Source of the DNA: an uncultured delta proteobacterium
Lineage (GTDB): Bacteria > RBG-13-61-14 > DRUE01
NCBI GenBank assembly: GCA_903930515.1
Contig: CAIYYW010000117.1
Span: 1 to 19,958, forward strand
Length of the DNA stretch: 19,958 nt
Reading direction: 5' to 3'
Numbering within the stretch: position 1 is the first letter of the stretch; every line of letters begins with the position of its first letter. Positions 3,858 to 16,880 of the stretch are shown one piece after another. A program made the translations under genes and the position numbers. Under the pieces are notes generated by a model. It did not search any database, was not told the DNA's origin, and was given only the letters and a program-made list of their open reading frames with translations.

Positions 3858-5297
3858 TTAAGGCTTCACCATCAAACGCCTTTGACTCTTTCCACTTAAA
3901 GGGGAAACGGACAGAAGATGATTTTGCCGGTCAACGGTGAATTCGCCCTCCGGCTCCAGAATTATGGAAGGCTCTCCGCCATAAATTCTTTCCGGCAGAT
4001 ATATCTCCGTGGGAGATTTTAGCTCGGGATTTTCCCGCCAGCCCAGCTCCAATTCCCCGGTTTCCGGATCAAAGGAAAATTTATCAATCTTTCCGGAAAC
4101 TGCCCGGGGATAGGGCCGGTCCAGCGCGAGCGCTCCGGGCCGGAGCGACCCGTCGGGTTCAAAGATGGAAGTGTTCTCCAGGTTCCAGACGGTCTTGCTG
4201 ATGGACGCTTCCCAGAAGGTCCCGGAAAGAAGTAGCTGGTCAATCGTCCCGTACAACTTATTTATATATGAGGGCGCGCTCTTGAAAAGCGGCGAGATCC
4301 CGTACTCGGTCAAAAGCGCCGGCGAATTCCAAAAATCCCCGAGCGCCCGGTCCCTGGTCAATCCCCTGCGGATCAGCTTTTGCTGCCCGGCCTTGCCGAA
4401 GGGAATTCCAAAAGTGCCGGGATCATAATAATGGGGCGCCAGGACCAGGTTGTTGATCTCCGGCTTGGTCATCCGCGGATTCCAGGCGCCCTGGTTTTCC
4501 AGCGGGCAAAGATCAACCAAGATCAAGTAGCGCGGGTCAGCCGACTGCACGGCCTTTGCGACCTTTTGATCCAGCCGGAACAAATGCTCCTGATTCCATT
4601 CCGAATAATGAGCCATTCCGCTCCAGCCCGGAAACGGCTCATTGATCGGCTCAAACCCGATCACGGCCGGCTCATTTTTATATCTCTCCGCCAGCATCCG
4701 GAAGAACGCCGCGTAACTGTCCTGGACTCCGTCCGCGTTGGACCAGAACCGGTCAGCCGTGCTTGCCACAGGATTGGTGAAATAGCGCAAAGACCAGAGC
4801 CGGCAATCGGCGTGAGCAGGGTCGTTTTGATATTTTTCCGGAAGAGCCCAGTCCGGGAGGCCGTCTCCGCAGAGCCTCCGGGAATACAAATCCTGGTGGC
4901 TGTCAATGATGATATAAATTCCGCGTCGGGCAAAAGCCTCCACCATCGCGTCATATTTTTGAAGGTAGTCCTGGTCATATTTGCCCCGCGCCGGCTCCCC
5001 GGCCTCGTAAATCACCAGCAGACGAACCACATTGAACCCCAACGACTGGACCCGGTCCGCGTATTTATTAAGCGCGGTCTCAAAATCCGGCTCCGGGTCA
5101 AAGGGAAAAAAGGGAGGCATCTTGCTCCGGCCCCCGGTATTCACTCCCCGCAAAATCACCTCCCGGCCTTCGCCGTCCTTGAGCCGATTTTGGTCGGCGC
5201 GCAGGACGGACAATTTCTCCGAATTCCCGGCGCCCGAAGCCATCCCCGCCGAAAAAATCAGCAGGCCCGCAACCATCCATCCCTTTTTCTTTCTCAT
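3858..5297 (-). CDS. Exported GH5 glycosidase, endoglycoceramidase-like
   Basis: The protein has 479 residues with a signal peptide (1-22, MRKKKGWMVAGLLIFSAGMA). The (beta/alpha)8 barrel of glycoside hydrolase family 5 spans about 45-375. Its motifs are IDSHQDLYSR (131-140), the acid/base Glu220 in EPINEPF, APHYYDP (287-293) and the nucleophile Glu331 in LLTEYG. The HQD-x-YS motif, the APHYYDP motif and the small C-terminal beta domain beginning YPRAVSG (about 396-402) are typical of endoglycoceramidases, which cut the glycan from the ceramide of glycosphingolipids. Other activities on beta-glucosyl glycolipids or glycans are possible. The start has AAAGGGGA about eight bases upstream. It is divergent from the chemoreceptor gene, and a long palindrome lies between them. 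The downstream barrel-protein gene has its own promoter. Confidence 0.82.
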   Translation of the reverse strand: MRKKKGWMVAGLLIFSAGMASGAGNSEKLSVLRADQNRLKDGEGREVILRGVNTGGRSKMPPFFPFDPEPDFETALNKYADRVQSLGFNVVRLLVIYEAGEPARGKYDQDYLQKYDAMVEAFARRGIYIIIDSHQDLYSRRLCGDGLPDWALPEKYQNDPAHADCRLWSLRYFTNPVASTADRFWSNADGVQDSYAAFFRMLAERYKNEPAVIGFEPINEPFPGWSGMAHYSEWNQEHLFRLDQKVAKAVQSADPRYLILVDLCPLENQGAWNPRMTKPEINNLVLAPHYYDPGTFGIPFGKAGQQKLIRRGLTRDRALGDFWNSPALLTEYGISPLFKSAPSYINKLYGTIDQLLLSGTFWEASISKTVWNLENTSIFEPDGSLRPGALALDRPYPRAVSGKIDKFSFDPETGELELGWRENPELKSPTEIYLPERIYGGEPSIILEPEGEFTVDRQNHLLSVSPLSGKSQRRLMVKP

Positions 5298-7471: not shown

Positions 7472-8596
7472 TTATAACTTGGGCATAATCTCCGAGATCT
7501 TGGTTTCTTTTTTCAGCTTGGAGACCAAGGCGGGCAGTTTTTTCATCAGCCGTTTATGCCCGCTGAATTTACCCTTCTCCAGCGCGTATCCGAAAATAAT
7601 CGGGACCGCGATGGTGGTATCGGAATAGACCACCACGCTGCTGGCGAGACGCTCGGGTTTGATCTTTCCCCAACTGATGGCCTCCTCGGGGGTGGCTCCG
7701 CTCAATCCGCCCCAGTGGGGGGAATCAATGGTGATCTGGATGTCGTAATCGTGCCCGGACACATCAATCCCGCATTGGATCCTGAGCATGGGCTGGGTCT
7801 GGAGGTAGAAGTTTTTGGGAGAGCCCCCGCCCACGATCACCACCCCGTTCTTTTGGGCCCCGTTCACAATCGCGCTGGTTTCCACCACATCCTGGATCGG
7901 GTCCAGGTCAAACTCAAACCCCTTGATCCGGACCAGGGCCAGGTTCATCCCGATTTCGGAATCGCCCGGAGAGCTGGTATAGATCGGAACATCATACTTG
8001 GCGGCAGTCGCCACCATACTGTTCTCCGGCTTCACCCCGTCTTCCAATAAGGCCTTGCCCAAGGCGTAATGAAATTCCGCGGTGCTCATTTTCTTCCCGG
8101 CCAAATCCTTGAGCACTTCCAACAGCCATACATCCGACCGGATGTTGACCTCCTCGGCCAGGAAAATGTCGTAAATCCGGTCAATATTTTTCTTGTTCAG
8201 GGCGCAATCGTCCACCCGGAAATGTCCCTGATACATCGGCAGCTCCAGCGCATACGCGAGGTCGTGGAAGACATTGGCGCCGGTGGCGATGATCCAGTCA
8301 ATGCCGCCTTTCTCAATCATCTGCGAGATCAATCCGCCCATCCCGGTGGGGGTCATTGCCCCGGCCAGGGTCAGGCCGATGGTGGCCTTTTCCTTGAGCA
8401 TCGTCTCATAAATCCGGCAGGCGGTGGCGATCCGGCCGGCCTGGAACGAGCCGGAATCGGCATACACCCCGACCAGGTCGGAAAATTTGGACCCGGCCGG
8501 AATCTTCAGCGCCTTTATCCTCCGGGCATGAATCGGAGGGGCCTGAAAGCTTTTCGGAATCCGGACCTGTTTCCATGCTTTTCTCTTCGGACTCAT
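7472..8596 (-). CDS. Deoxyhypusine-synthase-like protein, probably a homospermidine synthase
   Basis: The 374-residue protein has the NAD-binding fold and motifs of the DHS family: TLAGAMTPTGMG (76-87), IIATGANVFHDL (102-113), GGGSPKNF (256-263) and SGATPEEAISWGKI (299-312). Lys311 matches the lysine that carries the aminobutyl intermediate in human DHS (Lys329). The acidic pair of eukaryotic DHS in the GGVEED motif is replaced by VFHD, as in bacterial DHS-like proteins. Bacteria lack eIF5A, so hypusine formation is not expected. The family parallel is transfer of an aminobutyl group from spermidine to putrescine, giving homospermidine. The divergent neighbour is an ornithine-decarboxylase-type enzyme that would supply putrescine. 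The start is supported by GGGAG six bases upstream of ATG 8596. The substrate remains inference. Confidence 0.85.
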   Translation of the reverse strand: MSPKRKAWKQVRIPKSFQAPPIHARRIKALKIPAGSKFSDLVGVYADSGSFQAGRIATACRIYETMLKEKATIGLTLAGAMTPTGMGGLISQMIEKGGIDWIIATGANVFHDLAYALELPMYQGHFRVDDCALNKKNIDRIYDIFLAEEVNIRSDVWLLEVLKDLAGKKMSTAEFHYALGKALLEDGVKPENSMVATAAKYDVPIYTSSPGDSEIGMNLALVRIKGFEFDLDPIQDVVETSAIVNGAQKNGVVIVGGGSPKNFYLQTQPMLRIQCGIDVSGHDYDIQITIDSPHWGGLSGATPEEAISWGKIKPERLASSVVVYSDTTIAVPIIFGYALEKGKFSGHKRLMKKLPALVSKLKKETKISEIMPKL

Positions 8597-8740: not shown

Positions 8741-8778
8741 AAATCTGTTTTCAAATAAGGCGGCGAAGGAGAGAAAAG

Positions 8779-9921
8779 ATGTTGACCATAGAGCAGATGA
8801 AAAAGTCCTTGGAGGTTGACAAGCTGGAGACCCCGTGCCTGGTGTTGGACAAGCGGATCATCAAGCGCAAATACCAGGAGATCAAGAACAGCATTGCGGG
8901 GGTCAAGGTTTTTTACGCGGTCAAGGCCAATCCCGATATTGAGGTGTGCCGGTTCCTGAATGAGCTGGGATCCGGGTTTGAAGTGGCCTCGGTCAACGAG
9001 CTGAGGTTAGTCCTGGGCATCGGCGCCAGCGCGAAGAATGTGATCATCAGCAACATTTTAAAGCCGGTGGAATTTATCCGGGAGGCGCACCGGTCCGGGG
9101 TGGAATATTTCGCCTTTGACAGCGAGATGGAGGTTGACAAACTTTCGGAGCACGCCCCGGGGAGCAAGGTTTATCTCCGGATCGTGGTGGATAATACCGG
9201 GAGCGAGTGGCCGCTCTCGCGCAAGTTCGGGGCCGATCCCTCCATGGCGCTGGACCTGCTCCGCTACGCGCGTTCCTCGCGGGTCATCCCCTACGGGATC
9301 ACCTTCCATGTCGGGTCCCAGTGCATGAACCCGCTTAACTGGAGCAACGCCCTGATCACGGCCGCGGGAATTTTCCATCTGGCCAAAAAGAACGGGATTG
9401 ACTTGAAGCTGATCAACCTGGGCGGGGGAATCCCGGTCAAGCATTTGAAGAAGACCCCGAAGATTTCCGAGATCAAATACCAGATTGAAAAAAACCTGCG
9501 CGACGCTTTTTCCGATCATCCCGGTCTGGAGCTGATGATTGAGCCGGGGAGGGCAATGGTGGGGGACGCCGGGAATATCATCACCAAGGTGATCCTCAAG
9601 GCCGAGCGCGGCGCCGAGACCTGGCTCTATCTGGATGTCGGGGTGTTCAACGGCCTGATGGAAACCATAGAGGGGTTCACCTACGAACTGGTGAGCGAGA
9701 AGGAGATGTCCGGGTTCGTGGATAAAATGGAAATGATCCCATACACCGTTGCCGGACCGTCCTGCGACAGCGTGGACACAATGTTTGAGGGATATAAGCT
9801 GCCCAAGGACTTGACCCTCGGCGACCGCATCTACATCATCAACGCCGGCGCCTACACCCTTTCTTACGCCTCCCATTTCAACGGCCTGGAGCCGCCCCGG
9901 GTGTATTTTATTGAGAAGTGA
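8779..9921 (+). CDS. Ornithine/lysine/diaminopimelate-type decarboxylase of the alanine-racemase fold, likely ornithine decarboxylase
   Basis: This 380-residue enzyme belongs to fold-type III PLP decarboxylases. Lys49 in FYAVKAN forms the internal aldimine; HVGSQ (177-181), LGGGIP (214-219) and EPGR (255-258) bind PLP; GPSCDSVD (326-333) carries the Cys329-Asp330 pair that comes from the partner subunit of the dimer; AGAYT (356-360) is the C-terminal phosphate-side motif. The length fits the short eukaryotic-like ODC/LDC branch and not the longer arginine decarboxylase or DapA-linked forms. Ornithine as substrate, giving putrescine, is inferred from the divergent DHS-like gene; lysine or both are possible. 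The start is ATG 8779, with AAGGAG seven bases upstream. A longer frame begins at 8680 but its extra 33 residues are Arg-rich and overlap the promoter. Confidence 0.9.
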   Translation: MLTIEQMKKSLEVDKLETPCLVLDKRIIKRKYQEIKNSIAGVKVFYAVKANPDIEVCRFLNELGSGFEVASVNELRLVLGIGASAKNVIISNILKPVEFIREAHRSGVEYFAFDSEMEVDKLSEHAPGSKVYLRIVVDNTGSEWPLSRKFGADPSMALDLLRYARSSRVIPYGITFHVGSQCMNPLNWSNALITAAGIFHLAKKNGIDLKLINLGGGIPVKHLKKTPKISEIKYQIEKNLRDAFSDHPGLELMIEPGRAMVGDAGNIITKVILKAERGAETWLYLDVGVFNGLMETIEGFTYELVSEKEMSGFVDKMEMIPYTVAGPSCDSVDTMFEGYKLPKDLTLGDRIYIINAGAYTLSYASHFNGLEPPRVYFIEK

Positions 9922-9944: not shown

Positions 9945-10613
9945 TCAATTTCCCTTTTCAGAAAGCATCGCCAAATTTCTCGGCAGGCAAAAGGTCTGAT
10001 AGGGGCGGAGCTTGGAAAATTGCACGCCCGGGATATCTCCCGCAACAGGGCGCCATTGGGCCAGCCTCCAGAACCGGTCAATGTCCATGGTCTCAATATA
10101 ACCGAACGGGTTGGCGATGGTGAACTGCTTTTTCGCCGGGTCAATCCCGATGATGACGCAGAAATGCCCGACCGGGGTTCCCGGCTTGAAAAAGTTTTCC
10201 GTGAGGAAAGTCGCGATCACCGGATAGCCCTGGCGCAGGGAGTCGGCCACCGCCTGGTCGGTCGCGGCCTTGCCTTTGATTATTTTCGCTTGCAGGCCGG
10301 TCCCGGTCTGGTCCAGGTATTGGTTTAATCCCCGGGCCATCATCCCGTTGGAGGTTCCGACCAGACGATTGGTTTTCATCGCCTGGGCCAGATCTTTTTC
10401 CGGCATCGGATGACCGAGGAACTCCAGGACCATCCGGGCCGCGGCCGGTCCGCAGGTGTAGGGGGTCTCCTGTTGATGGACCGGGAAATTCGCGAGCAAG
10501 ATCGGGCCTTTTGGCTGAGCGGCCGCTTGATTCAAAGCCGATGATGAAGAGCCGACCAGAAGAAAAGCGCAGATCAGAATCCCCAAAAACCGCCGGAATA
10601 ATTTTCTTCCCAT
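9945..10613 (-). CDS. Exported C39-family cysteine peptidase-like protein
   Basis: The 222-residue protein has an N-terminal signal peptide (1-33, hydrophobic FLGILICAFLLVG, cleavage near AAAQ). The papain-like C39 fold follows: Gln48, Cys54 in the QQETPYTCGPAAA motif, His150 in GHFCVIIGI and Asn168 in IANPFGY. These match the oxyanion Gln, catalytic Cys, His and Asn/Asp of the family. Classical C39 enzymes cut double-glycine leaders while fused to ABC transporters; this one is free-standing and exported with no transporter nearby, so it more likely acts on envelope or external peptides. ATG 10613 has GGGAGGA upstream. A 37-codon membrane-peptide ORF lies 19 bases before it and may form an operon with it. 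It converges on the ODC-like gene with only 23 bases between. Confidence 0.82.
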   Translation of the reverse strand: MGRKLFRRFLGILICAFLLVGSSSSALNQAAAQPKGPILLANFPVHQQETPYTCGPAAARMVLEFLGHPMPEKDLAQAMKTNRLVGTSNGMMARGLNQYLDQTGTGLQAKIIKGKAATDQAVADSLRQGYPVIATFLTENFFKPGTPVGHFCVIIGIDPAKKQFTIANPFGYIETMDIDRFWRLAQWRPVAGDIPGVQFSKLRPYQTFCLPRNLAMLSEKGN

Positions 10614-10804: not shown

Positions 10805-10833
10805 TTGACCGGGTTCATGGAATCGGCTATCTT
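10805..10833 (+). promoter_or_regulatory. Promoter of the regulator/glycyl radical enzyme operon
   Basis: TTGACC (10805-10810), a 17-base spacer and TATCTT (10828-10833) precede the regulator ATG by about 65 bases. It appears to be the only promoter for the following five tightly packed genes. Confidence 0.6.
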
Positions 10834-10837
10834 AGAA

Positions 10838-10850
10838 GTGGTCATACCAC
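10838..10850 (+). promoter_or_regulatory. FadR/GntR-type operator on the operon start site
   Basis: GTGGT-CAT-ACCAC is a perfect 13-base inverted repeat matching the TGGTnnnACCA core known for FadR, PdhR and other FCD-subfamily GntR regulators. It covers the predicted transcription start just after the -10 box, so the regulator encoded next probably represses its own operon until an effector binds. Confidence 0.65.
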
Positions 10851-10896
10851 CAGACCAAAAATTAAAAATGCGGGCGGGGGATGACCGGGGGAAAAA

Positions 10897-11658
10897 ATGA
10901 GCTCAGGCGGAAAATTCAAGCCGGTGAAGCGGGAAGGTCTATCCGACCAGGTATATCAGGCCCTGCGCCGGCGGATCATCCAGGGAAAGATTAGGGCCGG
11001 GGAAAAATTGCCGGCCGAGCGGGAGCTGGCGCTGAGCTTCCAGGTCAACCGCGGCGCCATCCGCGAGGCCCTGAGCCGTCTGGAGGAGAACCGCCTGCTC
11101 AGCATCAAGCAAGGCTCCGGCGCCCTGGTCCTGGACTGGACCCAAAGCTTCCGTCTGGATTTTCTCGCCGACCTGCTCTGGGTAAACGGCAAGATCAATT
11201 TCCAGGCCTTCCGATCCGTGCTTGAGCTCCGCGAAATCCTGGGGCCCGAACTGGCCGGGTACGCGGCCAGGCGCGCGGGCAAGCGCGAAGTGAATCAGCT
11301 TCTGAAAATCGCTCAGGAATTGAAACAGGCCCGGGAGCAGCCGGAAAAATTCCAGCAACTTGAGTATCGCTTCAATCAAACTTTGGCAAGCGCGAGCGGT
11401 AATTTGGCGTTCCAGTTTCTGGTCAATTCCATCGGGAGCATCTATCTGAAAAACGCCCCGATCTTCCGGCTCGGAATCGCCCCGCTCTTGGATTCGGCCG
11501 GCAAATACCTGGAGGTCGCAAGGGCGGTCCAGGCCGGCAATGAAAAGAAATCAAGAAGACTGATCCGGGAACTGTTTAAAGAGTCCGGACGGGCGTTCTA
11601 TAAGTTGATTGAGAATGGGCGGAATCAAGCGCGCAAAGGAAACCGGACCGGTGGTTAA
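10897..11658 (+). CDS. GntR family transcriptional regulator, FadR (FCD) subfamily
   Basis: The 253-residue protein starts with a winged helix-turn-helix (about 14-80: LSDQVYQALRRRIIQG, then KLPAERELALSF and REALSRLEENRLL). An all-helical FCD effector domain (about 100-235) follows. In FCD proteins that bind a metal, an Asp and three His residues coordinate it and the motif usually reads DxxFH; here it reads EYRFNQTLASASGN, with His replaced by Asn, and few His are present. The ligand is therefore probably held without the metal, as in acyl-CoA-binding FadR. It is the first gene of the glycyl radical operon and has a matching palindrome at its own promoter. Autorepression relieved by the pathway substrate or product is the simplest reading. 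Start ATG 10897 follows a GGGGG run at five bases. Confidence 0.88.
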   Translation: MSSGGKFKPVKREGLSDQVYQALRRRIIQGKIRAGEKLPAERELALSFQVNRGAIREALSRLEENRLLSIKQGSGALVLDWTQSFRLDFLADLLWVNGKINFQAFRSVLELREILGPELAGYAARRAGKREVNQLLKIAQELKQAREQPEKFQQLEYRFNQTLASASGNLAFQFLVNSIGSIYLKNAPIFRLGIAPLLDSAGKYLEVARAVQAGNEKKSRRLIRELFKESGRAFYKLIENGRNQARKGNRTGG

Positions 11659-11702
11659 GTAATCTGCAAAGCCCTGACCTTTAAGTGCAAGGAGGATTGC
11701 AA

Positions 11703-14141
11703 ATGTCGGAAAATGTGCGGCTGCGGGATCCCGGCCGGGGTCTGGTGGAAGAGGTCTATGCTTTAAAGCTGGAGGGATTTCCGCGGGCGCAAAGGCTTCG
11801 GGAAGCGATTATGCAGGAGACACCGGCGGTGGGATTGGAGCGGTCGAGCCTGCTCACGGACTATTTTGAAAAGAACGGTTTTGATCTGGAGCATCCGCTT
11901 CTGCGCCAGGCCGACTCGCTCAAGTATGTGCTCGCGCATCTGACCCCGGCGATATTTCCGGAGGAGTTGATCGTGGGCGGCTGCACGGAGCACCGGCTGG
12001 GATGCGTGATGTTCCCGGAGTTCCAGGCGTCGCTGATCTGGCCGGAATTGATCCAGCTCCCGAGGCGGAAGCGCTGGCCGGTGAACATTTCCGAGCAGGC
12101 GATTGCGGAATACAGCTTCCGGATCTTTCCGTATTTCAAGGACAAGAACATCCACGAGTGGACCAAGAGACGCTTTGGGCGCCGCGAGAGCATCAGGCTG
12201 ATGGAGCGGATGGTGTTTTACCTGATCGCGCTCCCGAACGGGGTGTCTCATTTGATCCCGAACTATCCGATCGCGGTTCGGCTGGGCTTCAACCGGATCA
12301 TGGAAATGGCGGGTGAAAAGAAAAAGGCGGTCACCGGGAAGGGCAAGGACGCGGATGCGCCGCGGGAATTTTACCGGGCGGTTGAGACGGTTTCGGAAGG
12401 GGTGATCAAGTTCGCGATCAACCATTCGCTCAAGTGCCTGAAGCTGGCGGAAAAGGAGCCGAACCCGGAGCGGAAGCGGGAGCTGGTGGGGATTTCCAAA
12501 ATTTTGGGCCGGGTCCCGGCCGAGCCGGCTCGGACCTTTTGGGAAGCTTTGCAAAGCCTCTGGATAACGCACTTGGCGGTTTTGCAGGAGAACTCCGATT
12601 TGGCCGTGAGCTTCGGGAGGATGGACCAGTTGCTGCTCCCCTATTTTGAGCGGGATCTGGCCGAGGGAAGGGTTGATCTGAGCAAGGCGATGGAGCTTCT
12701 GATGTGCCTCTACATCAAGACCAACGACCACACCCCTTTGGTCCCGGCAATGGGAGAGGCGCTCTTCAGCGGGAGCGCCACCAACCAGTCCATCACCCTG
12801 AGCGGGGTTGATCCGGATGGGAAGGACTGCACCAATCTCCTGAGCTATATGATGGTCAAGGCGCTGGATTTGCTCCGGCTCCGGGAGCCGAATGTGGACG
12901 CGAGATTCCATAGAGCCTCTCCGGAACTATGGTATGAGAAGGTTTTGGAATCGGTCCGGTCCACCGGGGCCGCGCCCGCGCTTTACAATGACGATGCGAT
13001 CGTGCCGGCGCTGGTGAGCAAGGGCTTGAAGGTGGAAGACGCTCGGGATTACGGCGTGATCGGCTGCGTTGAAACCCAGGTCCAGGGCAAGTCCTATCCG
13101 ATGACCGGGGCCATCCTGCTCAATATCGCGGCGATCCTGGAACTGTCGCTCAACAACGGCATCCATCCCTTTTCCGGACTTCCGGTCGGACCGGAGACCG
13201 GGTATTTGCGCGACTTTCAAAATTTTGATCAGGTCTGGGGCGCGTTCCAAACCCAGTTGCAGGCGATGGCGGACCAGTCGGTTGACGCGGAGACCGCCTA
13301 CGACCAGGCGCATCAGGAGCTGCATCCGATCCCGCTGCTCAGCGCGCTGATTGAGGGGCCGATGGAAAAGGGGAAGGATTTGACCGAGGGCGGCGCGCTA
13401 TATAATTCCAGCGGGGTCTGGGTGGTCGGGCTTGCGGATGTAACGGATTCGCTCGCCAGCCTCAAGAAGCTGGTGTTTGAGGAAAAACGGGTGAGCGCGA
13501 AAGGGATGGAGGACGCGCTTAAAGCGGATTTCAAGGGGTTTGAAAAAATCCAGGCGCTGTGTTTAAGCCGCGCCCCCAAATACGGGAACGATGACCCGGA
13601 GGCCGACGATCTTGCGGTAAAGGTTGTGGACGCGATTGACCGGGCGTATGGGAAACACCTGAACTACCGGGGCGGTCCGTACCAGGCCGGTTTTTGGACC
13701 ATGACCATGCATACCGGATACGGAAGAGCCACCAGCGCCTTCCCGAGCGGAAGAAAATCCGGGGCCTCGCTCGCGAGCGGAGCCACGCCGGTGAGCGGGG
13801 CAAGCCGCAAAGGCCCGAGCGCCGCGCTCTCCTCCACGGCCAAGCTCCCGGCCTGCGGGTTGGCCAACAGCATCGCCAACAACCACAAGATTCCAGCCGG
13901 CCTGTTGCAGGAGCCGGGAAAGATCAAGGTCCTGCAGCAACTGGTCAGGGGCTTTTTCCAAAAAGGCGGGCTCCAGGTACAATTCGTGATCGCGGACAAG
14001 AAGATGTTGGTGGACGCGATCAATAATCCGGAGCTGGCCAAGGACCTGCTGGTCCGGGTGAGCGGATACACCGCTTATTTCGGGGACCTGAACCGGGCGA
14101 TGCAGGAGGAGATCGTTAACCGGACCGAGGATATAATTTAA
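11703..14141 (+). CDS. Glycyl radical enzyme of the dehydratase/lyase type, substrate unknown
   Basis: The 812-residue protein is a full-length PFL-fold enzyme. The C-terminal RVSGYTAYF motif holds the glycyl radical at Gly788, 24 residues from the end. The thiyl Cys455 lies in IGCVETQVQGK with Glu457 two residues on, the Cys-x-Glu arrangement of glycyl radical dehydratases, lyases and decarboxylases; pyruvate formate-lyase has Cys-Cys. Other family landmarks are ELIVGG (near 87), GRMDQ, KYGNDDPEADD and the P-SGRKSG loop. The GCVET, LELSLNNG and KYGNDD stretches recall hydroxyproline dehydratase from memory, but the pocket region differs, so the reaction is not assigned. Start ATG 11703 has AAGGAGG seven bases upstream. 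There is no N-terminal microcompartment-targeting extension and no shell genes. Its activase is encoded four genes on. Confidence 0.93.
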   Translation: MSENVRLRDPGRGLVEEVYALKLEGFPRAQRLREAIMQETPAVGLERSSLLTDYFEKNGFDLEHPLLRQADSLKYVLAHLTPAIFPEELIVGGCTEHRLGCVMFPEFQASLIWPELIQLPRRKRWPVNISEQAIAEYSFRIFPYFKDKNIHEWTKRRFGRRESIRLMERMVFYLIALPNGVSHLIPNYPIAVRLGFNRIMEMAGEKKKAVTGKGKDADAPREFYRAVETVSEGVIKFAINHSLKCLKLAEKEPNPERKRELVGISKILGRVPAEPARTFWEALQSLWITHLAVLQENSDLAVSFGRMDQLLLPYFERDLAEGRVDLSKAMELLMCLYIKTNDHTPLVPAMGEALFSGSATNQSITLSGVDPDGKDCTNLLSYMMVKALDLLRLREPNVDARFHRASPELWYEKVLESVRSTGAAPALYNDDAIVPALVSKGLKVEDARDYGVIGCVETQVQGKSYPMTGAILLNIAAILELSLNNGIHPFSGLPVGPETGYLRDFQNFDQVWGAFQTQLQAMADQSVDAETAYDQAHQELHPIPLLSALIEGPMEKGKDLTEGGALYNSSGVWVVGLADVTDSLASLKKLVFEEKRVSAKGMEDALKADFKGFEKIQALCLSRAPKYGNDDPEADDLAVKVVDAIDRAYGKHLNYRGGPYQAGFWTMTMHTGYGRATSAFPSGRKSGASLASGATPVSGASRKGPSAALSSTAKLPACGLANSIANNHKIPAGLLQEPGKIKVLQQLVRGFFQKGGLQVQFVIADKKMLVDAINNPELAKDLLVRVSGYTAYFGDLNRAMQEEIVNRTEDII

Positions 14142-14153
14142 ATGGAGACGGGA

Positions 14154-15470
14154 ATGAGAATAAAATATTTACTGCTCGCGCTCGCCGTTCTGATCGCGGG
14201 TCCGGCCGGAAGGGCGCAGGCCGCGCCGGAAAGATTTTCGGTTGACTATTTTGGTTACCCGGTCAATTTCACCTGCTCCGCGATCCCCTCGGGGCATCCG
14301 GCGAAAAGCTTTGAAAAGCTGATCCAAAAGGACTTGGCCGAGCTTGGGAACTGCCCGGACGCGTTGTCGCAACTCTCGCAACAGCTTGGGTTCCAGAATC
14401 ACCATTACGGCCGGATCCTTCTGTTCTGGAAATTCGCGGAGACTTTCACGGGACCGAGGACCGCGAAAGGATGGGTCTCGTTCGCGGAGGCCGTCTCCGG
14501 CAGGAAAATGGGACGCAATGATAGGATCGCCCTGATTTACGCGCTCCTGGTCAAGGCCGGGTATGGCGGCCGGATCGTGGAAGACCGGACGGAATATTAT
14601 ATCCTGCTCCAGGTCCAGGACAGTTTGGCGGGTATTTATTTCAAGGGGTATCAGGCCTACCGGATTTGGGAGCCGGGATACCCGTTTGAGGAAATCCCGG
14701 CCGGTAAAATTTCTCCGACCTTGAACTTCCCGGAGATTTTTCATAACGGAGCCCCGGTGAGTTTTGACACCCTGGGATCGGTTCCCTGGAACCAGACCCG
14801 GAAGGGGTCGGAGGTCAAATTTAAAAGTCCGGAAGCATGCCCGGTGACCTGGAATTTCAGCCGGGAGCGGCTCCCGGGCTACGAGGAATACTTGAAGTTC
14901 TGGCCCCGCAAAAGGGAAATCCAGGCGCTGGTTTCCGACGAAATTTTCGCCCCGTTCAATCTGTCCGGGAAATTTAATCCGGGTAAAAATTATGAAGTTC
15001 AGGAGCTGAGCGACGCTCAGTTCGGGAATTGCCTGTTCAAATGGGTGCGGCTCAATGCCCCTTATGCCACCGGCCGGCAAAACCCGCGCAACCCGGTGGA
15101 AACAATTTTTCGGGACCGGAAGGGCGACTGCGACGAGCTGTCTTTTTCCCTGCTCGCGGTTTTGCGCGAGGCCGGGTATCCGGCGGATGATATCCGGATG
15201 GCGGTCTGGCCCAAGCATATGACCCTGGCGGTGGCGCCTTTGAGCGAGCCCGGCCCGGACAGTTACCTGAGCGCGAAGACCAAGTGCAGTTTTTTGGAAG
15301 CCGGGAAGGAATTTTATGTGATGGACACCTCGTATCTGTGCAAGGAAAAAACTCCGGAGGGGAAGATCCTCAGCATTCCGGAAGATCAATGCTGGATCAA
15401 ATGGGGGATGTGCAGTTACGATGTTTTGGGCGGGCAAAAATTTATTTCCCAGCCGGTGGAAAGGGAATGA
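14154..15470 (+). CDS. Exported transglutaminase-like protein with a degenerate first repeat
   Basis: From ATG 14154 (GGAG six bases upstream) the product is 438 residues with a clear signal peptide (1-23, MRIKYLLLALAVLIAG, cleavage near AQA-A). An ATG at 14142, directly after the previous stop codon, would add four residues. The C-terminal half has the transglutaminase/protease-like triad Cys326 (DRKGDCDELSFSLLAVL), His355 (WPKHMTLAV) and Asp391 (FYVMDTS). Residues 117-137 (RKMGRNDRIALIYALLVKAGY) align without gaps to 322-342, with Arg121 in place of the Cys, so the first half looks like an inactive copy. Members cross-link, hydrolyse or amidate peptides. Its place between the glycyl radical enzyme and its activase is unexplained: it may process a peptide-linked substrate outside the cytoplasm. 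Confidence 0.78.
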   Translation: MRIKYLLLALAVLIAGPAGRAQAAPERFSVDYFGYPVNFTCSAIPSGHPAKSFEKLIQKDLAELGNCPDALSQLSQQLGFQNHHYGRILLFWKFAETFTGPRTAKGWVSFAEAVSGRKMGRNDRIALIYALLVKAGYGGRIVEDRTEYYILLQVQDSLAGIYFKGYQAYRIWEPGYPFEEIPAGKISPTLNFPEIFHNGAPVSFDTLGSVPWNQTRKGSEVKFKSPEACPVTWNFSRERLPGYEEYLKFWPRKREIQALVSDEIFAPFNLSGKFNPGKNYEVQELSDAQFGNCLFKWVRLNAPYATGRQNPRNPVETIFRDRKGDCDELSFSLLAVLREAGYPADDIRMAVWPKHMTLAVAPLSEPGPDSYLSAKTKCSFLEAGKEFYVMDTSYLCKEKTPEGKILSIPEDQCWIKWGMCSYDVLGGQKFISQPVERE

Positions 15471-15489
15471 AGGCAAAGGAGAGCGGAGA

Positions 15490-15930
15490 ATGATCAACCC
15501 GCAGGCGGGAAGGCAAAAGGCGGCGGTGGAATGGATGCGCTGGATTGCGATCGGGTTCGGGCTAAAGGCGCTGGCCTTTTTCCTGAAACGGCAGGGGAAA
15601 AAGGATCCATTGCTGGGCCGGGCTTTGGCCGAGTTTAACGGGGTGTATCGGTTTGAAAGCGGGGACCGAAGGTTCGCGCGCTATCTGGTATTGGAAGGGG
15701 GTAAAGTGTTTGCGGGAAAGAACCGGGCGGGAGAGCCTGATTTTAAATTGACCATTTTCGATCCGAGCAAGCTCAGCCTGCGCGGCCGGCAGGAGATGGT
15801 TTTGGAGATCATCATCGGCAACAAGATCGGCCAGACCGGGAACCTTTTTTACCTTTACCAGTTCGGCTTTATCCTGAGCCTGCTGGACCGCAGTTTCAAG
15901 AGGAAAAAAAGCAAAAGGGGTTTGCCCTGA
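15490..15930 (+). CDS. Small SCP2-like (sterol carrier) domain protein
   Basis: The 146-residue product starts at ATG 15490, with AAAGGAG eight bases upstream; upstream in-frame ATG 15421 lies inside the previous gene and is unlikely. A basic, hydrophobic helix (about 13-33, VEWMRWIAIGFGLKALAFFL) could anchor it to the membrane. The remainder has the feel of the SCP2 fold: a first strand set (GVYRFESGDRRFARYLVLEGG), a conserved-type KLTIFDPSKLSLRG segment, then an amphipathic helix (EMVLEIIIGNKI) and a hydrophobic C-terminal helix (LYQFGFILSLLD), ending in a Lys/Arg-rich tail. SCP2 domains bind lipids or other hydrophobic compounds. I recognise this from pattern only. It sits 19 bases after the transglutaminase-like gene and 11 before the activase, so it is in the operon. 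Confidence 0.6.
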   Translation: MINPQAGRQKAAVEWMRWIAIGFGLKALAFFLKRQGKKDPLLGRALAEFNGVYRFESGDRRFARYLVLEGGKVFAGKNRAGEPDFKLTIFDPSKLSLRGRQEMVLEIIIGNKIGQTGNLFYLYQFGFILSLLDRSFKRKKSKRGLP

Positions 15931-15941
15931 ACGGGCGGGAG

Positions 15942-16880
15942 ATGCCAACGGTTGAAGAAAAAACAGCGGCGCTGGTCTCGGACCTCCAGCGGTTTTCCAT
16001 CCACGACGGGCCCGGCATCCGGACCACGGTTTTTTTCAAGGGATGTACCTTGCGCTGCCAATGGTGCCAGAACCCGGAGACCCTGAAATTTGAAAACGAG
16101 CTGGTCTTTTCATCGGAGCGGTGCATCGCCTGCGGGGACTGCGCGAAAAATTGCCCGAACCATGCGATCAAGTTTGATCACGGTCCACATATTGAATTCA
16201 GCGTCTGCAAGAACTGCTTCACCTGCGCGGATGCCTGCCCGAGCCGGGCGCTAGAGCCGGCCGGGAAAGAATACGGCGCAGAGGCGCTCGCAACCGAGCT
16301 GTTGAAAGACCGGGAATTTTATCAGCCGGAAGGCGGGGTCACTTTAAGCGGGGGCGAGCCGTTTTCGCAGGCGAAATTTTTGCTGGAGCTGCTGCCGATT
16401 TTGAAGCGCGAGAAAATACATATTACAGCCGAGACCTGCGGTCATTTCAATTATGAGGCGGTTTTGCCCAGCCTCAAGATGGTGGACCTGATCCTGTTTG
16501 ATCTGAAAGCGCTTAACCCGGATTTGCATCAACGCCTGACCGGAAAGGATAATGAGTTGATCCTGAAAAACCTCCGCCGGATCCTTGACCTGAAAATCCC
16601 GCATCAAATCCGGATGCCCCTGATCCCGGGATTGAACGATCAGGAATCAGAATTGAAAGGGATCGCGGAATTCTTGAAATCGCTCGGCGAACCCGAACTC
16701 TGGCTTTTGCCCTATCACCGGCTGGGAGAGAGCAAGCTGAAAAAACTCAACACCGAGATGAAACCGCTCGGCCTGAAGAGCTACTCCGAAAAAGACCTGC
16801 GCTCCAAGGCCGGGATCGTCGCCGCTTGCGGCATCACCGCGCGGACCTTCAACTTCAGCGTTCCGCCCTCAACCTTTTAA
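15942..16880 (+). CDS. Glycyl radical enzyme activating enzyme (radical SAM activase)
   Basis: The 312-residue protein matches the PFL-activase family with an extra ferredoxin-like insert. The radical SAM CxxxCxxC is Cys35, Cys39 and Cys42 (KGCTLRCQWC), preceded by the family signature FSIHDGPGIRTTVF. Two four-cysteine clusters follow: Cys61-64-67-71 and Cys89-92-95-99. The SAM-binding GGEP is at 137-140. Two-cluster activases go with glycyl radical dehydratases, lyases and decarboxylases and not with pyruvate formate-lyase, whose activase lacks them; this agrees with the Cys-x-Glu site of the enzyme at 11703. It abstracts the hydrogen from Gly788 of that enzyme. It begins 11 bases after the SCP2-like gene with only a weak purine run before the ATG, so translation is probably coupled. 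No terminator is visible after it. Confidence 0.95.
   Translation: MPTVEEKTAALVSDLQRFSIHDGPGIRTTVFFKGCTLRCQWCQNPETLKFENELVFSSERCIACGDCAKNCPNHAIKFDHGPHIEFSVCKNCFTCADACPSRALEPAGKEYGAEALATELLKDREFYQPEGGVTLSGGEPFSQAKFLLELLPILKREKIHITAETCGHFNYEAVLPSLKMVDLILFDLKALNPDLHQRLTGKDNELILKNLRRILDLKIPHQIRMPLIPGLNDQESELKGIAEFLKSLGEPELWLLPYHRLGESKLKKLNTEMKPLGLKSYSEKDLRSKAGIVAACGITARTFNFSVPPSTF

Follow-up and report, generated by a model that had tools for sequence, protein, structure and literature searches.

Characterised glycyl radical enzymes (GREs) act, to our knowledge, on small metabolites or, in the case of the fumarate-adding enzymes, on hydrocarbons or aromatics. The locus described here raises the question of what such an enzyme does when it is encoded together with an SCP2-like lipid-carrier protein and an exported transglutaminase-like protein, and which of these partners belongs to it. 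A first-pass annotation had taken the two partners together as the hallmark of the system, and had proposed a peptide-linked or lipid-like compound as its substrate.

A five-gene operon around a glycyl radical enzyme

The window (the whole stretch of 19,958 nucleotides that was analysed) corresponds to contig C117 of a draft genome of 3.6 Mb. Its closest relatives that bear names are Deltaproteobacteria bacterium RBG_13_61_14 and isolate CSMAG_2661. Papers, PMC13170169 among them, rank RBG-13-61-14 as a candidate phylum. We compared the window with the other available member of its genus, a second species (G001), and with a genome of the same order (G002).

Five genes lie on the plus strand in the order GntR/FCD regulator, GRE, transglutaminase-like protein, SCP2-like protein and activase (Table 1), and the gaps between them, read from the sequence, are 44, 12 or 0, 19 and 11 bases, exactly as first annotated. 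The promoter that had been placed ahead of the regulator corresponds to a promoter-like site conserved in G001. The locus of G001 has the same five genes in the same order, with protein identities of 66–67% (GntR), 76% (GRE), 56% (transglutaminase), 58% (SCP2) and 78% (activase), and nucleotide differences between the two loci fall mostly at third codon positions. The palindrome behind the -10 element, TGGTCATACCA, occurs once in the window, and G001 carries an identical copy at the corresponding position. We assign it to the TGGTNNNACCA class of sites, to which FadR/PdhR-like regulators bind, and this argues that the operon is likely autoregulated by its own GntR/FCD product through this site. 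No regulator precedes the GRE in G002.

Table 1. Positions of the operon's genes, catalytic codons and upstream elements within the window.
Feature	Position	Strand	Evidence or remark
Promoter-like site TTGACC-N17-TATCTT	10805–10833	+	G001: same spacing and -10; -35 is TTGACA
Operator-like palindrome TGGTCATACCA	10839–10849	+	Directly behind -10 element
GntR/FCD-family regulator	10897–11658	+	GntR E 8.8e-22, FCD E 5e-16
GRE, 812 aa, His183/Cys455/Glu457/Gly788	11703–14141	+	PFL-like E 8e-185, plus Gly_radical
Catalytic Cys455-x-Glu457 codons (GCVE)	13065–13073	+	Alignment
Codon of radical glycine Gly788 (RVSGYTAYF)	14064–14066	+	Glycine motif
Exported transglutaminase-like protein	14142–15470 (second possible start 14154)	+	Transglut_core E 1.7e-6
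SCP2-like lipid-carrier protein, 146 aa, hydrophobic N-terminal helix	15490–15930	+	SCP2 profile
GRE activase, radical SAM, two auxiliary 4Fe-4S motifs	15942–16880	+	TIGR02494

The second gene has the sequence features of the GRE superfamily, namely a PFL-like domain, a catalytic cysteine and a C-terminal glycyl radical motif, and the adjacent activase expected of a superfamily member is present in the same operon. This radical SAM protein scores 313.8 bits against TIGR02494 (cut-off 174) and carries a CxxxCxxC motif and two ferredoxin-type Cys4 motifs, in agreement with its annotation as a two-cluster activase. The predicted Cys-His-Asp transglutaminase fold was also borne out, with a Transglut_core match above the gathering score and the triad Cys330, His359 and Asp395. 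An internal duplication of this protein was considered and dropped, as BLAST gave no significant match.

Partners of the enzyme in other genomes

The two partners fared differently. In G002, a GRE 71% identical to that of the window is followed by SCP2 and activase genes with no transglutaminase between them, and no transglutaminase match was found anywhere in that genome; among all SCP2-GRE loci read, only the window and G001 carry the gene. We therefore rejected the transglutaminase as a core partner: the pair is no hallmark of the system, and the peptide-linked half of the proposed substrate is left unsupported. Judged by its distribution, this exported protein is an addition specific to the genus. 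A case for a pathway that acts on a peptide-linked compound, with this protein as an essential partner, could still be made from the position of its gene within the operon, collinear in G001, where the Cys-His-Asp triad is kept; we consider it very unlikely, both from the distribution just described and since the transglutaminase is exported whereas the GRE is cytoplasmic. Absence of the partners beside close homologues, which the first-pass annotation had named as grounds for abandoning its proposal, was thus found for the transglutaminase and clearly not for SCP2, and a lipid-like compound is still the best inference.

An SCP2-type domain accompanies the GRE at every locus of the clade, in 23 of 23 genomes from several deep lineages. 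In six genomes it has a gene of its own downstream of the GRE, which in G056 and G059 (GREs with about 39% identity to that of the window) follows directly; in the other 17, G022 and G037 among them, it is fused to the GRE N-terminus. As SCP2 precedes the GRE in one form and follows it in the other, the pairing is not explained by simple inheritance of a single gene order. In G401 (L121), counted among the 17 fusions, an in-frame TGA lies between the SCP2 and GRE parts of a gene that is otherwise fused, and is either a real split or a sequencing error.

Similarity searches over a sampled set of species yielded the clade, and members without SCP2 may exist beyond that sample. A contig scan with the window GRE alone returned two close relatives only, and a fused N-terminus used as query matched 13 of 386 diverse genomes. 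The G056 GRE, a query without the SCP2 domain, matched 12 of 385 genomes at E≤1e-160, and all 12 were SCP2-coupled. Within phyla, the fused gene was present in 7 of 7 genomes (phylum of G258), 4 of 7 (G037) and 5 of 9 (G022). Among the fetched loci, an HMM built from 18 SCP2 domains matched clade loci exclusively, in 23 genomes; it found nothing at other fetched GRE loci of the same genomes, nor in YbiW, HypD, CutC or PflB. A further SCP2-like fragment lies on another contig of G266.

We placed these enzymes in a maximum-likelihood tree of 40 GREs that included other full-length GREs from the coupled genomes. The 14 coupled enzymes formed one clade with support of 100/100 and one change of state for SCP2, a result that identifies them as one group and does not speak to the absence of uncoupled members, because members were found by mutual similarity. 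The nearest lineages in the tree are a GRE of G026 (L020) and one from an Acinetobacter towneri plasmid (L055); unlike the clade of the window, neither has an SCP2 domain at its locus. Taken with the single supported clade, this suggests that the coupling probably arose a single time, at the clade's base. The window GRE falls inside the clade and has an adjacent SCP2 gene, and by these comparisons appears to represent a GRE subfamily, so far uncharacterised, whose members consistently come with a lipid-carrier domain of the SCP2 type.

Two other groups in the tree deserve mention. The A. towneri GRE is encoded on a mobilizable plasmid with its own activase, and a related GRE occurs on Moraxella plasmids. 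A second group of GREs, consisting of L002 (from contig C377 of the window's own genome), L084 (G002) and L082 (G258), sits on its own long branch; these have the motif GCLENT, the glycine motif RVTGYNAYF and no SCP2, and among solved structures they are closest to glycerol dehydratase and CutC.

The assignment of the carrier depends on the group. The window protein alone matches PF02036 at E 0.008, under the Pfam cut-off, whereas the 18-member group can be placed in that family: PF02036 is matched at E≤0.1 by 10 of the 18, and no other family by as many, two isolated fused domains pass the gathering score for SCP2, and the best PDB matches of the 18-row profile are three SCP2/lipid-transfer chains (E 0.004–0.005). 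An AlphaFold model of the window SCP2 protein, built from a shallow alignment, reached a pLDDT of 51 and, like the transglutaminase model, was unusable. From the profile matches, the window carrier is probably SCP2-like and may have a lipid cavity. In the characterised cases, proteins with an SCP2 fold carry lipids on behalf of soluble enzymes: UbiJ is a binder of quinone intermediates, and UbiT, its proposed anaerobic counterpart, also exists as a UbiT-UbiU fusion (PMC6747719). In ubiquinone biosynthesis, as in the window operon, these SCP2 accessories stand beside soluble enzymes, but the enzymes they serve are not GREs, and the likeness of UbiJ to the window carrier is at the level of the fold family (UbiJ E 0.7).

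Enzyme chemistry and candidate substrates

Cys455, Glu457, Gly788 and His183 of the window GRE align with Cys433, Glu435, Gly763 and His164 of glycerol dehydratase. The positions aligned with H281, S282, D447 and Y339 of that enzyme, which we take to be its substrate (glycerol) contacts, carry for the most part nonpolar residues or Asn/Asp in the clade. Since the catalytic residues are kept and the contact positions replaced, the clade enzymes appear to retain the radical elimination machinery without the polyol-binding pattern. The B12-independent glycerol dehydratase (1r8w/1r9d) thus shares with the window GRE the fold, the Cys-x-Glu, the radical glycine and the aligned histidine, and differs from it in its glycerol contacts and in lacking the SCP2 partner.

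Scores against known families agree with the first-pass placement of the GRE outside those described, as it falls far under every characterised-family cut-off: 617 against 678 for TIGR01774 (PFL2/glycerol dehydratase), and, in NCBIfam, 486 against 1100 for HypD, 471 against 1050 for CutC and 454 against 1000 for sulfopropanediol dehydratase. CutC, HypD and YbiW resemble the window system in consisting of a GRE of the Cys-x-Glu class plus an activase; they form separate clades, however, with no SCP2 domain at their loci, and the window GRE is far under the CutC and HypD equivalog cut-offs. Its best solved relative is A. fulgidus PFL2 (2f3o; 472 bits), and glycerol dehydratase (467 bits) is among the best. 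Scores are much lower for MasD and the benzylsuccinate synthase TutD (about 205 bits each) and for 4-hydroxyphenylacetate decarboxylase (194 bits).

These distances bear on two alternatives. The gene assA is listed for the RBG-13-61-14 phylum (PMC13170169), and an SCP2 protein could carry an alkane, as might suit an alkylsuccinate synthase of the AssA/MasD type that adds hydrocarbons to fumarate. With the fumarate-adding enzymes far more distant than glycerol dehydratase, and with no known Ass/Bss small-subunit gene recognised in the operon, we regard this as extremely unlikely; the scores do not support the assA label for the window GRE, which may or may not be a gene that the paper scored. 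In genomes of this kind, assA or generic pyruvate-formate-lyase labels may mask a different chemistry. Alternatively, the GRE could belong to an anaerobic pathway of isoprenoid quinones or other polyprenyl lipids, where it might, for example, decarboxylate or dehydroxylate the head group by radical chemistry, the SCP2 protein taking the part of UbiJ or UbiT, which are SCP2 proteins of quinone synthesis (PMC6747719). Some GREs do decarboxylate aryl acids (NCBIfam families), but the decarboxylase is the more distant relative here, no quinone-pathway gene was recognised among the annotated neighbours, and we judge this distinctly improbable.

We hypothesize that the window operon belongs to a GRE subfamily in which the SCP2 protein presents a lipid-like substrate for radical elimination, a reading to which we give a little more than even credence. 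In such a pathway, the activase would generate the glycyl radical on Gly788, the radical would move to Cys455, and Cys455 would abstract a hydrogen from a hydroxyl-bearing carbon, with Glu457 and His183 serving as acid/base. Elimination of a neighbouring group (water, alkoxy or other) would then leave a carbonyl product, as in glycerol dehydratase or choline lyase. By analogy with UbiJ and UbiT, the SCP2-like protein may hold the hydrophobic substrate and hand it to the soluble GRE, as UbiJ does for quinone intermediates, and the GntR/FCD regulator would repress the operon from TGGTCATACCA until its ligand binds. Candidate substrates are glycerolipid-like molecules, such as a monoacyl- or alkylglycerol, or another hydroxy-lipid. 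The pairing of GRE and SCP2 is established by comparing genomes; we infer the lipid substrate, the elimination chemistry and the regulation, and the identity of the substrate is the least certain part. A more specific and tentative guess, one of several possibilities and with a minor chance of being right, draws on the relationship to glycerol dehydratase, the SCP2 domain and a small number of neighbouring genes: SCP2 would take up a monoacylglycerol, an alkylglycerol or a phospholipid headgroup, and the GRE would break a C-O bond in the glycerol moiety of this glycerolipid.

The GRE might instead act on a small soluble metabolite, with the SCP2-like domain as an accessory that assists folding or oligomerisation, shields the radical or attaches the enzyme to the membrane. 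Other GREs do have accessory subunits, for example the small subunits of hydroxyphenylacetate decarboxylase or benzylsuccinate synthase, although we know of none with an SCP2 fold. SCP2 folds can be kept as scaffolds, and the sugar-type FGGY kinases that neighbour the GRE in G037 and G316 would fit a small polyol. We nevertheless think this rather unlikely, as the polyol contacts of glycerol dehydratase are mostly lost and characterised SCP2 folds carry lipids (PMC6747719).

Returning to the lipid-carrier reading, the finding of an oxygen-sensitive GRE with its own lipid carrier in all 23 genomes suggests an undescribed class acting on fatty, membrane-type molecules. The GRE superfamily itself is known; what is new is a subfamily with a dedicated lipid carrier. 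We found no link between GREs and SCP2, and nothing relevant on GREs with ether lipids or with transglutaminases, in the open-access literature searched; the architecture may already be listed, unremarked, in subscription papers or domain-architecture databases. If the more specific guess of a glycerolipid substrate is right, these would be the first GREs on membrane-lipid-type molecules and would provide an oxygen-independent means of breaking or remodelling ether or glycerol lipids in anaerobes. According to reviews, the tetrahydrobiopterin-dependent alkylglycerol monooxygenase is the only known enzyme that cleaves alkylglycerol ethers (PMC3617469, PMC7911779), and the clade bears on how anaerobes break such lipids. 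Its occurrence throughout the seven genomes sampled from one group of phylum rank, and in part of the genomes of other groups, would point to radical lipid chemistry in little-known lineages.

Genes flanking the SCP2-GRE loci

No flanking gene was constant across the SCP2-GRE loci. The activase adjoins the GRE at many of them; it was not found beside the GRE in G037, G316, G121, G384, G394, G395 and G396, where some contigs end near the gene. Directly behind the activase, G258 and G393 encode an aminotransferase fused to a long-chain acyl-ACP-reductase-like domain. The locus of G397 includes a hydrolase closest to monoacylglycerol lipase, and those of G022 and G401 a short-chain dehydrogenase. 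Together, these neighbours, found in separate lineages, lean weakly towards lipids.

Fusion proteins of about 1020 residues, in which a class-III aminotransferase is linked to a domain that resembles long-chain acyl-ACP reductase and PigE, are encoded directly behind the GRE activase at L044 (13243–16305) and L104 (11027–14170), and could make long-chain amines. Two candidate links were dropped. FGGY kinases stand beside the fused GRE only in G037 and G316 among the loci read. An exported protein with a C39-like cysteine-peptidase fold is encoded divergently from the window operon (9945–10613, minus strand), and homologues lie near the fused GRE of the related genomes G384, G395 and G396; the link is absent at the remaining loci and was treated as coincidence.

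Elsewhere in the window, outside the operon, an exported GH5 enzyme with a Glyco_hydro_5_C domain is encoded at 3858–5297 (minus strand). This is presumably the build of endoglycoceramidase-type glycolipid hydrolases, a lipid theme within the window. A homospermidine/deoxyhypusine-synthase-family protein (7472–8596, minus strand; 408 bits against a cut-off of 450) is encoded divergently from an ornithine/diaminopimelate-type decarboxylase (8776–9921, plus strand), and the pair is possibly part of an unusual polyamine pathway.
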